49,276 nucleotides of DNA from Candidatus Eiseniibacteriota bacterium (GTDB lineage: Bacteria; Eisenbacteria; RBG-16-71-46): contig JADLGX010000071.1 of assembly GCA_020849095.1 (NCBI GenBank), positions 1 to 49,276 on the forward strand, written 5' to 3'. Positions within the stretch are counted from its first letter, which is position 1; the number at the start of each line of letters is the position of its first letter. Under the pieces are notes generated by a model. The model was not told where the DNA came from and did no database searches. It worked only from the letters and a program-made list of their open reading frames with translations. A program made the position numbers and the translations under genes. Shown here in pieces: positions 6,499 through 26,248 of the stretch.

Positions 6499-7317
6499 TC
6501 AGCGCAGCCAGGCGATCGGCCGTGCGGCGCCGGCTTCCTCGCCCGCGGCCTGCCGGGCGCGCAGTTCGCCGTTGCCGGCCGCGGTCTGGTAGGCCCAGTC
6601 GAAGACCGCGAACGAACCGGTCAGGCCGGTGACGCGGAACTTGGCGTAGTGATTGTCGCGAGTCCAGACCACGTAGCAGTGGCCGGGGATCAGCTCGACC
6701 GTCCCCGTGGGCGACCAGCCGGCTGCCGGGGCGTAGTCGATCACGTCGAGCGAGCTGGCGTAGCCCATGTCCTGGATGTCGGTCGCCCCGTCGCGGGCGA
6801 ACATCTGGTGCACGCTGCCGTTGTACCCGAAGAAGATGTCAGTCTGCACGTCGTCCGAGTTGCGCGCGATGGCGGACGAGAAGTCCCAGCCCGCGCCGCT
6901 GGTCGAGGTGACGAAGTTGCCGATCGTCGCGCCCGAGCCGGCCGGCCGCGAGGTGTCGAAGATGTCCTCGGGAGTCAGCTGGCTTTCGTTGCCGGCCGCG
7001 TCCACGGCAGCCACGGCGTAGTAACGCGTCGCGCCATTGGTCAGCCCGCTCACCACGAACGCGGTGCCCGTGGCGGTGCCGATGCGGTCGTAGGGGCAGG
7101 TCGCGCCGCTCGCGCACGTGGAGGAGTAGACGCGGTAGCCCACCACGTCGCCTTCGGTGTTGGCGAGCCAGCGGAGCGTGACCTGCGCGTCACCGGTGAC
7201 GCTGTACAGGCCGCGCGGGGCGGCAGGCGGGTGCACGTCGCGAGGAGCGGTGGTGTCTTCGCAGCCGGCGACGGCGAATGCGAGAAGGGCGAGCACTGCG
7301 ATCATCGAGCGACGCAT
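6499..7317 (-). CDS. Lipoprotein with a fibronectin type III domain
   Basis: 272 residues. A lipoprotein signal peptide (MRRSMIAVLALLAFAVAGC, lipobox VAGC, Cys19) is followed by an FN3-like domain (about 32-120; PPAAPRGLYSVTGDAQVTLRW through TRYYAVAAVDAAGNES). The C-terminal domain (about 135-260) contains GHCYVVWTRDNHYAKFRV and FDWAYQTAAGN, loosely reminiscent of HmuY-like lipoproteins; that resemblance is a guess. The ATG has a near-ideal AGGAGGT Shine-Dalgarno. It is the best sigma-54 target in the window, with a consensus site 44-58 bp upstream and a sigma-54 activator as the next upstream protein gene. Its substrate or partner cannot be read from the sequence. Confidence 0.8.
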   Translation of the reverse strand: MRRSMIAVLALLAFAVAGCEDTTAPRDVHPPAAPRGLYSVTGDAQVTLRWLANTEGDVVGYRVYSSTCASGATCPYDRIGTATGTAFVVSGLTNGATRYYAVAAVDAAGNESQLTPEDIFDTSRPAGSGATIGNFVTSTSGAGWDFSSAIARNSDDVQTDIFFGYNGSVHQMFARDGATDIQDMGYASSLDVIDYAPAAGWSPTGTVELIPGHCYVVWTRDNHYAKFRVTGLTGSFAVFDWAYQTAAGNGELRARQAAGEEAGAARPIAWLR

Positions 7318-7360: not shown

Positions 7361-7375
7361 GCAACGCGCGTGCCA
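7361..7375 (-). promoter_or_regulatory. Consensus sigma-54 (-24/-12) promoter of the FN3 lipoprotein gene
   Basis: On the minus strand the sequence reads TGGCACG-CGCG-TTGC, identical to the sigma-54 consensus at every conserved position, with GG and GC separated by exactly 10 nt. Predicted transcription start is near 7349, giving a leader of about 30 nt that contains the Shine-Dalgarno. Confidence 0.85.
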
Positions 7376-7456: not shown

Positions 7457-7494
7457 AAAAGGAACCGCCGCCGGATGGTGTCCGGCGGCGGTTC
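7457..7494 (-). terminator. Strong minus-strand terminator
   Basis: A perfect 14-bp stem (7462-7475 with 7481-7494, 5-nt loop) is followed in the minus direction by C and TTTT. It insulates the lipoprotein promoter from transcription arriving from the structured RNA region upstream. Confidence 0.75.
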
Positions 7495-7546
7495 TGGTGT
7501 GCGTCACGGTCTCAGGTGTGCAAACCGCGCAACACCGGTGCTGCTG

Positions 7547-7834
7547 AAAAAAAACGGACACTGGCCACTTTGAAGCCCCGCCGAAAGCCTGGACATCCCC
7601 CAATGTAGGCCGACGACGTGACGGACCAGTGTCCGAACACCTTCGGCGTCGAATGGAACCCCGCGTTTACGATGGCACTGACCGGGTACTGCTGGTGCCA
7701 CCGAACGAGGCCGTCCCTCCATTCCACTACCGAAGGAATCTCGAGCACTCCAAGCTAGCCGGTCGCAGGGCTGATACGTTGTCGCTTAAGACGGGGCTCG
7801 TACCCTCGACCAGACTCTGCGGAAACCGGCTAGC
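7547..7834 (-). ncRNA. Candidate three-domain structured non-coding RNA ending in U8
   Basis: Reading the minus strand 5' to 3', three hairpin domains follow one another. Domain 1 (7834-7754): 10-bp perfect helix (7754-7763/7825-7834), 5-bp helix (7764-7768/7817-7821) across a 3-nt bulge, and an inner helix 7773-7778/7799-7804. Domain 2 (7736-7640): helices 7730-7736/7640-7646, 7718-7724/7651-7657 and 7695-7703/7670-7678. Domain 3 (7635-7555): a 10-bp perfect helix (7626-7635/7555-7564) enclosing an 8-bp bulged hairpin (7587-7610), followed directly by eight U (7554-7547). Helices 7773/7804 and 7670/7703 contain a pair that is G.U only on the minus strand. G+C is below that of flanking genes and no credible protein is encoded. 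No RNase P, tmRNA or SRP signature was found. Promoter and exact 5' end are unknown. Confidence 0.65.
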
Positions 7835-8049
7835 CCAGATGATGGCCCAGCGATGCTTTGCTGGACGGTTTTGGAGGTCCCCCCCTCCGAGCACTAGACA
7901 TGAGCAGCCCGCGTGCCATGGACCGCACGAAGCCCGAACATTCCCTCAAGCCATTGTGCGACATGACGAACGCAGGCATTCCATGCCCCGGGCGATGGGC
8001 GCCCTTTCCGGTCGAAAGAGAAGAGAATCACGAAAACTTCTTTCATGAA
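7835..8049. other. Non-coding region with small hairpins, 5' side of the candidate RNA
   Basis: No credible gene on either strand. Minus-strand hairpins include CCAGC/GCTGG, GGAGG/CCTCC, CGTGC/GCACG and GGCAT/ATGCC, all with short loops. These could be the 5' portion of the structured RNA or its leader. No strong promoter was recognised. Confidence 0.4.
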
Positions 8050-8085
8050 ATCGCCCCGGGCAGCTAACTCGCTGTCCGGGGCGAT
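8050..8085. terminator. Hairpin downstream of the TPR-GAF activator gene
   Basis: 14-bp stem (8050-8063 with 8072-8085, 8-nt loop) with a single non-Watson-Crick position that is G.U in plus-strand RNA. In the minus direction only TTTC follows. It lies 45 bp after the stop codon of the activator gene and is the likely 3' end of that transcript. A T7 run at 8101-8107 lies on the plus-strand side. Confidence 0.5.
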
Positions 8086-8129: not shown

Positions 8130-11100
8130 TTATGCCTTCTCACTCTCGAGGCCATAGGCGCGGATGCGGCCGAGCAGGGTCGGGTAGCTCAGGTCGAGCT
8201 CGCGCGCTACACGCGCCTTGTTGCCCTTGAGCCGTGCGAGAGCCTCGGCAATCACCTGGCGCTCCAGTTCGGCCACCGAGTCCCGCATCGTGCGCCCCGT
8301 GGAGGTGATGCCATCGACCGGAACGCGCGCGGGCATGGCCGGGGCGCCCGGGGCGGCGAAACGCGCCTCGAGCATTTCGGCGGGAAGCAGCCCCAGGCCG
8401 AGTACGTCGCCCTCGTCCGCGAGCACGACCATGCGCTTGACCGTCTTCTCGAGCTCGCGCACGTTGCCGCGCCATTCGTGGCCGAGGAACGCGCTCATCA
8501 CTTCGGGCGAGAAGCCGCGCAGCGGCTTGTCCATCTGCCGCGAGTACAACGCCAGGAAATGCTGGGCCAGGATCGCGATGTCCTCGCGGCGCTCGCGCAG
8601 CGCGGGCACGCGGACCGTGATGTCGTTGAGGCGGTAGTAGAGATCCTCGAGGAAGCGCCCTTCGCGGATGCGTTCGCGCAGGTCGCTGCTCGTCGCGCAG
8701 ATCACGCGGGCGTCCACCTTGCGGTTGCGCGTGGCGCCGACCGGGCGGATCTCGCCCCGATCGAGCACGTGCAGCAGCTTGGCCTGGACGGCCTCGGGAA
8801 TCTTCTCGATCTCGTCGAGGAAGATCGTGCCGCCGTTCGCCTCTTCGAACAGGCCCGCCTTGTCGCGCGCCGCGCCCGTGAAGGCGCCCTGCACGTAGCC
8901 GAACAGTTCGCTCTCGAGCAGCTGCTCGGGCAGCGCGGCACAGTTGACCTGGACGAAAGGACGGTCGCGGCGATTGGAGATCTCGTGGACGACCTGCGCG
9001 AACAGGCCCTTGCCCGTTCCGGTCTCGCCCATGAAGAGGATTGTCGCGGTGCTGTCCCCCACCTTGCGCAGGAGCTGCATGACCGCTTCGACGTCGCGCG
9101 AGCGCGTGACGACGCGCTCCGAGCCGGGGCTCGGGCGCAGCTGGTCGCGCAGCTGCTGGTTCTCGGCCAGCAGGAGCGAGCGCTGCGCTTCGACGATGGC
9201 GACGGCGGCGCTGTTGGCGAGCACGGCGAGCAGGTTGAGCTCCCGCTGCTTGAAAGCGCCGAGGAGGTTGTCGTTGAGCCGGTCCACGTAGACCAGCCCC
9301 ACCGACTGCGACGGGAAGTTGAGCGGCACGCACACGAGCGAGCCGACGCTCTCGAGCGCCTCGGTCAGCGCGGGCGCGAAACGCGGGTCGGCGGACACGC
9401 GGCTGGAAAACATGGGGCCGTTCTCGGCGAAGCGCGCCCCGGCCGCGGTCTCGAGCACCCGCATGATGCGGCGGGCGCGGTCGCGTCCGAGTCCGTGCTG
9501 CGCGACCACGTCGAGCCGCCCGGCGTTGGAGCTGAACGCGAGGAATCCGCGGTCGCCGCCGGCGTGTTCGACGGCCAGCTTCACGATCTGGGCGAGCAGG
9601 CCGTCCATGTCGCTCGTCTCGCGGAACAGCCGGTTGGCCTCCTCGAGCGCGCGGAACTCGTTGCAGGTGGAGAGCGACACGGCGACGTACTGGCGCTCGA
9701 TCTCGCGGCGCAGCGCGGCGGCGCGCTCCTCGGTTTCGGGATCGCCGCCCTCGGCCAGCCAGCTCTCGGCCTGCTCGAGCAGCGACAGCGCCTGGTCGTA
9801 GTGTTCGCGCTCGGATTCGAGCCGCGCGAGGGTCAGCAGCGCCTCGGCCGCCAGCGGCAGCACACCCAGGTGGCGGAACTGCGCCGCCGCTCGGCGCGAG
9901 CCCTCGGCTGCGGGCTCGAGCGCGACGCGCAGCCGCACGCTGGCCGGCAGGAGCAGCAGGTACTCGCCCCACGCCGAGAGCGTGGTGGCGAGCTCGTAGG
10001 TTTCGCCGAGCTGTTCGAAGATCTGCGCGGCATCGCGCACACGGGCTTCCATCGAGGCGGCCTGGCCCTGCGAGGCATCGAGCCGGGCCAGCGCGCGAAG
10101 CGCGATCGCGTACTCGATACGGTCACCGAGGCGCTCGGCCAGCGCGAGCCCGCGCAGCGCATGCGCGCGCGCCTCGTCGAACCGGCCGAGCAACTGGAGC
10201 GCGAGCCCCATCCGGATCTCGAGCTCCATGACCATGTCGCCCTGCGGCGCACGCGAGCGCGCCTCTTCGAGCGCGGGCTCGATCAGCTGCAGCGCGAGCA
10301 GGCCATTGCCCCGGTCGATCTCGATCTCGGCCAGGAACTCGCGCGCGAGCTGGGATTCACGGGAGGCGTTGGACTGCGTGGCGAGCTCGAGGGCGCGGCG
10401 GAAATGCTCGGTCGCCCGCTCGTACTGGCGGCGCCGGCGGGCGAGCATGCCCGTCGCGAGCAGCGCCTGCGCCTCGGACGTGGTGTGTCCCACCTCGAGG
10501 CTGATGCGCAGCGACTGGCGGAAGTGCTCCTCGGCCATGTCCCACTGGCCCAGCCGGTAGCGGATGAGCCCGAGGTTCTGGTGATGCCCTCGCATGCGCG
10601 CGTAGAGCCCCTTGCGCTCGTCGATGCTGAGCGCCTGCTCGAGGAAGCGGATGGCCTCACGCCACTCGCGCAGGTTCTTGTGGATCATGCCCAGATTGTT
10701 GAGCGCCATGACCAGGCCGTCCGAATCGTCGATCCGTCGGTAGGTCGCGCAGGCGTTCTGGAACCACTCGATCGCGCCGTGCGGGTCGCCCAGTTTCTGG
10801 ATGTTGTTTCCGATCGCCAGCGCCGCGCTGCCCACCGCGCGATGCTCGTCGGTGTCCTTGAGCACCTGATACGCGTAGCGCGCGTAGCGCAGGCTGCGGC
10901 GGTAGCAGGCGGTCTCGTTGAGGATGGCGGCCATGCGCACCGCGATCAGCGCGTTCACGCGAGGATCGGCGAGGAGCCGGGCTTCCTCGCGCGCGGTGCG
11001 CGCGGCGGCGAGCGAAGCCTCGTACGAACCGCGATGGAACTCGGCCTGGGCGATTCGCAGCAGCAGGCGCACACGAGACGGCACGTCGGACGCGACGGTT

Positions 11101-11246
11101 TCCACCAGCGCCTGCTGGTAGGAATCGATCGCGCCCACAAAATTGTCGGCAGCGAGATGGAGATCGCCGACCGCCTCGTTCTGGCTCGTGCCATGCGGCG
11201 ACGCGAGCACTCGAAGAGACGAATCGGGGGGGATCGCTCTCTGCAC
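8130..11246 (-). CDS. TPR-GAF-sigma-54 activator (bacterial enhancer-binding protein)
   Basis: A 1,038-residue transcriptional activator of sigma-54 RNA polymerase. Residues about 25-480 are TPR-like helical repeats (e.g. [28 protein letters not shown]). A GAF domain spans about 530-685, then a short coiled linker. The AAA+ domain spans about 705-940 with Walker A GETGTGKG (near 737), an intact sigma-54 contact loop GAFTGA (near 787), Walker B IFLDEIEK and R-finger region. A Fis-type HTH follows (last 45 residues; [26 protein letters not shown]). There is no receiver domain, so it is probably controlled by TPR/GAF-bound partners or ligands. The GTG at 11246 lacks a clear Shine-Dalgarno, so the start is uncertain. 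A likely target is the sigma-54-driven lipoprotein gene downstream. Confidence 0.93.
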
Positions 11247-11285
11247 TGTTCGAACCCTCGACGGCGGTCAAACCCGGTGGGCCGA

Positions 11286-26171: not shown

Positions 26172-26248
<77 letters not shown>

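Follow-up and report, generated by a model that had tools for sequence, protein, structure and literature searches.

In the window (the whole stretch of DNA that was analyzed, 49,276 nucleotides in length), the minus strand very probably encodes a sigma-54-dependent structured RNA, as judged from its conserved sequence and fold. The explanation that we favor, and that we consider reasonably likely, is a stand-alone regulatory RNA that is activated by the adjacent bEBP and feeds back upon the mRNA of this activator; that grade is a joint one, combining strong confidence in the RNA itself with a far more tentative view of the feedback step. The structure with its covariation, the promoter consensus, the single copy per genome, and the phylum-wide linkage are all well supported by genome comparison, while transcription, the role of the bEBP as activator, the pairing with its mRNA, and the direction of regulation are what we infer. 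According to this model, the RNA would be transcribed from its own sigma-54 promoter under the control of a TPR-GAF-AAA+ bEBP encoded just upstream, and the transcript would end at an intrinsic terminator. It would act post-transcriptionally via an invariant G-rich 5' hairpin, which is partly repeated by GGGGGAUGUCC in domain 3, and the hairpin loop would pair with UCCCCCCC at codons 5 to 7 of the activator mRNA here and, in other families, with its Shine-Dalgarno region. Such pairing would limit activator synthesis and constitute a negative feedback, and further C-rich targets may be regulated as well.

Fold, helices and covariation

An earlier note on positions 7547 to 7834 had described three hairpin domains on the minus strand. 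These are indeed present and fold much above chance, as the minus strand of 7540–7840 has a minimum free energy (MFE) of -142.2 kcal/mol compared with -114.4 ± 5.1 for shuffled sequences (z = -5.4, with 0/100 shuffles matching it), whereas the plus strand of the same segment folds more weakly (MFE -110.6, z = -2.9), which confirms the choice of strand. The locus also differs from its neighbors in composition, as had been remarked, with a G+C content of 0.59–0.63 versus ~0.68–0.71 in both flanks, and the suspected lack of a plausible protein was borne out by the relatives, which share no open reading frame at this locus. The 5' limit of 7834 proved wrong, since homologues conserve a sigma-54 promoter (7918–7904) and two further helices (P1 and P2) upstream of this position, moving the start of the RNA to ~7892. 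This start is predicted from the promoter (12 nt past the -12 C at 7904) and falls 3–4 nt before the P1 hairpin. With the U8 tract as its end, the predicted RNA spans 7547..7892 on the minus strand and measures 346 nt, with lengths of ~135–400 nt among the relatives.

All of the following elements are read on the minus strand. At the 5' end, P1 (7873..7888) is an invariant hairpin, GGAGG-GGGGGA-CCUCC, which is present once per genome and is the proposed seed against the activator mRNA. It is followed by P2 (7840..7866), a short covarying hairpin (CCAGC...GCUGG) in which 4/6 pairs have changes on both sides. Domain 1 (7749..7839) comprises a 15-bp P3 stem (CUGGGCUAGCCGG/CCGGCUAGCUUGG), P4, and an internal three-way junction with P5 (GGGU-ACGA-GCCC) and P6 (GUC..GAC). 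Its core, CGAGGGTACGAGCCC, is invariant across 20 genomes with the exception of one inserted A in G016, and most of the 20 sequences of f1 (f1, f2, and so forth are the family labels of the genome set searched) individually fold to the domain 1 plan, with P3 and P5 forming in nearly all of them. A sequence in the activator leader, CGAGGGTTCGA (~11249–11262, minus strand), resembles the invariant RNA core CGAGGGTACGA at P5 (~7796–7810, minus strand) in the same sense, possibly as a shared binding site or by chance. Domain 2 (7638..7745) had been treated like the other domains and is actually the variable part of the RNA. In the relative G016 (L100), it is replaced by an insert of ~600 bp between domains 1 and 3, which contains an ORF for a 125-aa Cys-rich lipoprotein. 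Relatives carry members of this protein family at other loci, with as many as four copies in tandem (G007 contig 142), and no RNA pieces were found beside the copies that were inspected.

Domain 3 (7547..7637) consists of a GGACACYGG..CCRGUGUCC stem around the core UGGGGGAUGUCCAGGCU and continues straight into eight U at 7554–7547, such that it would also serve as an intrinsic terminator here. Its core shares GGGGGAYSUCC with P1. The terminal U8 of the earlier description is therefore present in this genome, but it is not conserved among relatives: the domain 3 tail is U-rich in some of them, and those with a poor tail (G001–G004, G008, G015, G018, and G019) carry a second GC-rich terminator ~60 nt further. 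In the window, this second hairpin (GAACCGCCGCCG..CGGCGGCGGUUC, followed by CUUUUCC) lies at 7463..7495 and offers an alternative 3' end. A simple terminator scan returned no hit and missed domain 3 because its inner part exceeds the permitted loop. Past the U8 tract, there is also a conserved block at 7463–7521 (minus strand) with inverted repeats (GGTGTNGCGC..GCACACCTGAGTC..GCGCACACC), located ~100–150 bp ahead of the sigma-54 promoter of the lipoprotein gene; this block may bind the activator or belong to a longer RNA.

Covariation among homologues was strong in both parts of the RNA for which it was scored. In domain 3, compensatory changes were found in 13/25 pairs, and 91.8% of cells pair versus 31–45% after sliding, with 0 shuffles reaching the observed value. 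Pairing in the 5' half holds for 90% of cells versus ≤46.5% after sliding, two-sided changes occur in 9/42 pairs, and the covariation score exceeds that of all shuffles. In an alignment-free control, the 5' arms of each genome were paired with the 3' arms of other genomes, and its own arms were matched or beaten in 0 (P2), 0 (P4), 1 (domain 2), and 0 (domain 3) of 20,000 permutations; for domain 3, the cutting of a few arms was imprecise and one genome was left out. These compensatory changes support the predicted helices, and the absence of covariation that could have counted against a structured RNA was not encountered. It is extremely improbable that the locus is instead a structured DNA element, such as a repeat or an integration or recombination site, or a chance fold. 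The P3 stem does contain the palindromic GGCTAGCC, so DNA hairpins could form, but the element occurs as a single copy at a fixed locus in each genome and has a sigma-54 promoter at fixed spacing as well as intrinsic terminators, its covariation tolerates G-U pairs, and its fold is better on one strand. A repeat or mobile element was rejected on account of the single copy and the fixed locus.

Promoter, distribution and neighboring genes

The putative promoter of the RNA, TGGCACGCGGGCTGC (7904..7918, minus strand), has the -24 GG and -12 GC of a sigma-54 promoter and stands at fixed spacing to the 5' hairpin. Its consensus in the relatives is TGGCAC-N6-TGC (-24/-12 TGGCAC-N-TTGC) with variable flanking bases, and every f1 and f5 copy opens with TGGCA[CT]-N6-TGC, followed by 14–15 nt and then the invariant hairpin GGAGGGGGGGACCUCC, the G run of which contains six to eight G. 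The genome encodes the sigma-54 factor RpoN, and a sigma-70 promoter scan of the locus gave no match. Further upstream, tandem half sites resembling CAACG-NN-TTG (approximately 7932..7980, minus strand) are candidate activator sites; they show weak, partial conservation in f1 only, at a constant distance from the -24 element on its 5' side. Dyad counting for a palindromic activator site at the RNA promoter yielded nothing above shuffles, and there was no obvious upstream site common to the RNA and lipoprotein promoters. From the sequence of the promoter and its surroundings, it appears that the RNA promoter is sigma-54-dependent and that the activator beside the RNA most likely switches it on.

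The combination of promoter and hairpin was found in exactly one copy in 40/47 genomes of the phylum using a slightly relaxed pattern, for which the reversed-pattern control gave 0. Among the others, G028 has the hairpin next to the activator and a promoter that has decayed, and in the f8 genomes G026 and G032 the promoter and a body resembling domain 1 are kept and the hairpin is changed; this assignment covers all genomes except G029, G040, G042, and G043. Scanning 84,980 species with a stricter pattern returned 23 contigs, all of which are Candidatus Eisenbacteria MAGs, one of them labeled Latescibacterota. By blastn, the locus was located in all 19 genomes of the same family, with similarity beginning near 7918, and a covariance model of the 5' half gave one match per f1 and f2 genome and 0 in the other 269 of 290 genomes. 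More distant copies differ in their bodies. The f5 copies are ~135 nt long and combine the promoter and P1 with a body of another kind and a strong terminator, while the domain 3 core UGGGGGAUGUCCAGGCU also occurs in f3, f4, and f10 and in part in f6. The predicted RNA is accordingly a single-copy element of nearly all members of a phylum known here only from metagenome-assembled genomes. Its promoter, 5' hairpin, and link to the activator have been kept, while the bodies have otherwise been completely replaced, and with the covariance models it can be annotated in Eisenbacteria MAGs.

The activator gene (bEBP; 8130..11246, minus strand, with a GTG start codon at 11246) encodes TPR, GAF, Sigma54_activat, and HTH_8 domains and a GAFTGA motif, and no receiver domain was matched in it. 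The order of activator followed by RNA is identical in every locus that reaches the activator gene, and wherever the contig does so, this gene ends ~210–280 bp before the RNA promoter (~211 bp here). Between its stop codon and the RNA promoter, there is a GC-rich inverted repeat at 8053–8085 (CCCCGGGCAG..CTGTCCGGGG), at which transcription of the activator gene probably terminates. The link to a sigma-54 circuit had been guessed from the order of the genes and gains support from the promoter in at least 40 genomes and from this activator linkage.

On the other side, a gene for a 272-aa lipoprotein (6499..7317, minus strand), FN3-like by eye and lacking a Pfam match, is preceded by a second sigma-54 promoter (TGGCACGCGCGTTGC; 7361..7375, minus strand), which is present in 20/20 f1 genomes, in f2, f4, f8, and most of f5, and is absent in f10. 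Since a sigma-54 promoter, the RNA, and the lipoprotein gene follow one another on a single strand, the RNA might be read as a cis-acting 5' leader of the lipoprotein operon, similar to an attenuator or riboswitch. We consider this very improbable and largely refuted, as the lipoprotein has its own promoter, terminators separate its gene from the RNA, and in G027 and G037 the RNA has remained beside the activator, with the lipoprotein gene at another place. The RNA would therefore form a unit with the activator, and of the setting that had been proposed for it, the activator linkage holds in every readable locus, whereas the lipoprotein, having its own sigma-54 promoter, would probably be a sigma-54 target alongside the RNA and not one that the RNA regulates.

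Complementarity to the activator mRNA

The proposed feedback concerns the loop of P1. In the window, GGGGGGGA of P1 is complementary over 8 bp to UCCCCCCC (11226..11233, minus strand), corresponding to codons 5–7 of the activator mRNA. In f1, UCCCCCCC lies within a near-invariant stretch at the activator start, GTGCAGNGAGCGATCCCCCCCGAT, and the synonymous sites of codons 4–8 are themselves nearly invariant (CCC CCC in 13–14/15), while the residues that follow are not conserved. In f4 (GAGGUCCCCC) and f6 (GGUCCCCCCU), the complement of P1 overlaps or abuts the Shine-Dalgarno region. P1 and the activator start region share maximal Watson-Crick runs of 7–8 nt in 16/17 f1 genomes, 7 in f2 and f3 (the weaker cases), and 10 in f4 and f6, compared with mostly 4–6 against the start regions of four neighboring genes, apart from single cases (an LpxH value of 22 was ignored, as this perfect match is the RNA locus itself, reached from a misplaced start). 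Control windows of the same locus reach the activator run length in 0.4–2% of cases in most f1 genomes and in ≤0.5% in f4 and f6, for a complementarity that was found post hoc by scanning the loci for C runs, the complements of the P1 loop. A duplex-energy version of the test gave a far weaker result than run length, since every C-rich window obtains a good score. In f8 (L150 and L151), differences from the other families are seen both in the 5' hairpin and in the Shine-Dalgarno region of the activator, and a duplex of 11 bp (one of them G-U) can still be drawn between the two by eye. From these comparisons, P1 may pair with the activator translation start over 8–10 nt in several families and exert negative feedback there; we regard this proposal as tentative, and the specific pairing that it names would be easy to test.

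In f5 (4–6 nt), f10 (5–6), f9 (5), and genome G003, there is little or no such complementarity, yet P1 itself is invariant in all of them, which indicates that pairing with the bEBP mRNA cannot be the sole constraint upon P1. This would suit the same sigma-54-dependent RNA if it paired with trans targets and exerted no feedback on the activator, and the two G-rich motifs would likewise fit a class of C-rich targets. We still regard trans action alone as rather unlikely, because it leaves unexplained both the UC7 of f1 with its synonymous conservation and the 10-nt Shine-Dalgarno matches of f4 and f6. C-rich stretches are common in this G+C-rich genome, near-perfect complements of the hairpin within it showed no excess over control, and the complementarity of P1 to the lipoprotein start was nothing beyond background. 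Returning to feedback, the UC7 of f1, the Shine-Dalgarno matches of f4 and f6, and the changes on both sides in f8 suggest a fuller version, namely a phylum-wide single-copy RNA with an invariant G-rich seed hairpin at its 5' end and exchangeable bodies, which feeds back negatively on its own activator by pairing with the translation start of the latter, and in which the seed and the activator ribosome-binding site have co-evolved. We consider this version plausible, albeit somewhat short of probable.

Comparison with known RNAs

No Rfam (release 15) family reached its gathering score at the locus, and in a permissive scan the best weak matches fell upon the downstream terminator. Together with the strong covariation and the absence of coding, this upholds the earlier proposal of a previously undescribed structured RNA. 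The stated lack of RNase P, tmRNA, SRP, or 6S signatures likewise stands: neither Rfam models nor ARAGORN matched RNase P, tmRNA, or SRP RNA at the locus, and 6S RNA (RF00013) has no match in the window and a match on another contig of the genome. Elsewhere in the window, ARAGORN reports tRNA-His at 733–823 and tRNA-Met at 26172–26248 (+). The RNA is a new family, absent from Rfam, of the already known kind composed of sigma-54, an activator, and an sRNA. Features of this kind that are found here include the -24/-12 promoter, the adjacent activator gene, the sigma-54 factor, a non-coding conserved structure, and a terminator. In the literature on Eisenbacteria, a search with non-coding RNA returned only a metagenome paper, and one with RpoN found nothing.

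As a multi-hairpin RNA with GGA in loops and CsrA in most of the genomes, the RNA bears some likeness to CsrB and RsmZ, and the same sigma-54-dependent RNA could use its G-rich hairpins to bind protein instead of mRNA, for instance by titrating CsrA or another RNA-binding protein. The consensus bound by CsrA is RGGAUGU. The domain 3 core contains the similar GGGAUGU, the GGGGGAYSUCC motif is common to P1 and this core, CsrA is encoded in 34/47 genomes including this one, and three f8 genomes lack CsrA, with the two f8 RNA copies that were inspected lacking the GGGGGA motifs. Nevertheless, we find this unlikely, given that the GGA count is near the shuffled level (8 versus 7 here), that the f5 forms have only 2–3 GGA with one or two in a loop, unlike CsrB/RsmZ sponges, and that no CsrA was matched in the RNA-bearing genomes G014, G030, and G035, each of which is ≥94% complete. 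A CsrA sponge in particular was rejected, as there are 1–5 loop GGA and a total near the shuffled expectation in most copies; compared with CsrB and RsmZ, GGA is not enriched and GGA loops are too few.

Two known systems are closest. By layout, it is Pxr of Myxococcus, which is likewise encoded just 3' of a sigma-54 activator gene and has a predicted sigma-54 promoter and three stem-loops. Pxr is 108 nt long and lies downstream of nla19 in a 262-nt intergenic region, its neighbor is a response regulator, and its targets are unknown (PMC5568312). The RNA described here differs from it in length, in host phylum, and in the type of neighbor, which is a TPR-GAF activator, the two being compared by description with no sequence relation known. 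By proposed action, the closest are the Qrr sRNAs of Vibrio, which are made under the sigma-54 activator LuxO and repress luxO translation (PMC8043402, PMC3262071), and thus likewise repress their own activator. This feedback is proven for Qrr and inferred for the present RNA, which has no sequence or structural relation to them. The Qrr sRNAs are also shorter, multi-copy, and Hfq-dependent. If the predicted RNA is made as proposed, modules of the Pxr and Qrr type, each joining sigma-54, an activator, and an sRNA, would extend outside of the Proteobacteria and Myxobacteria.
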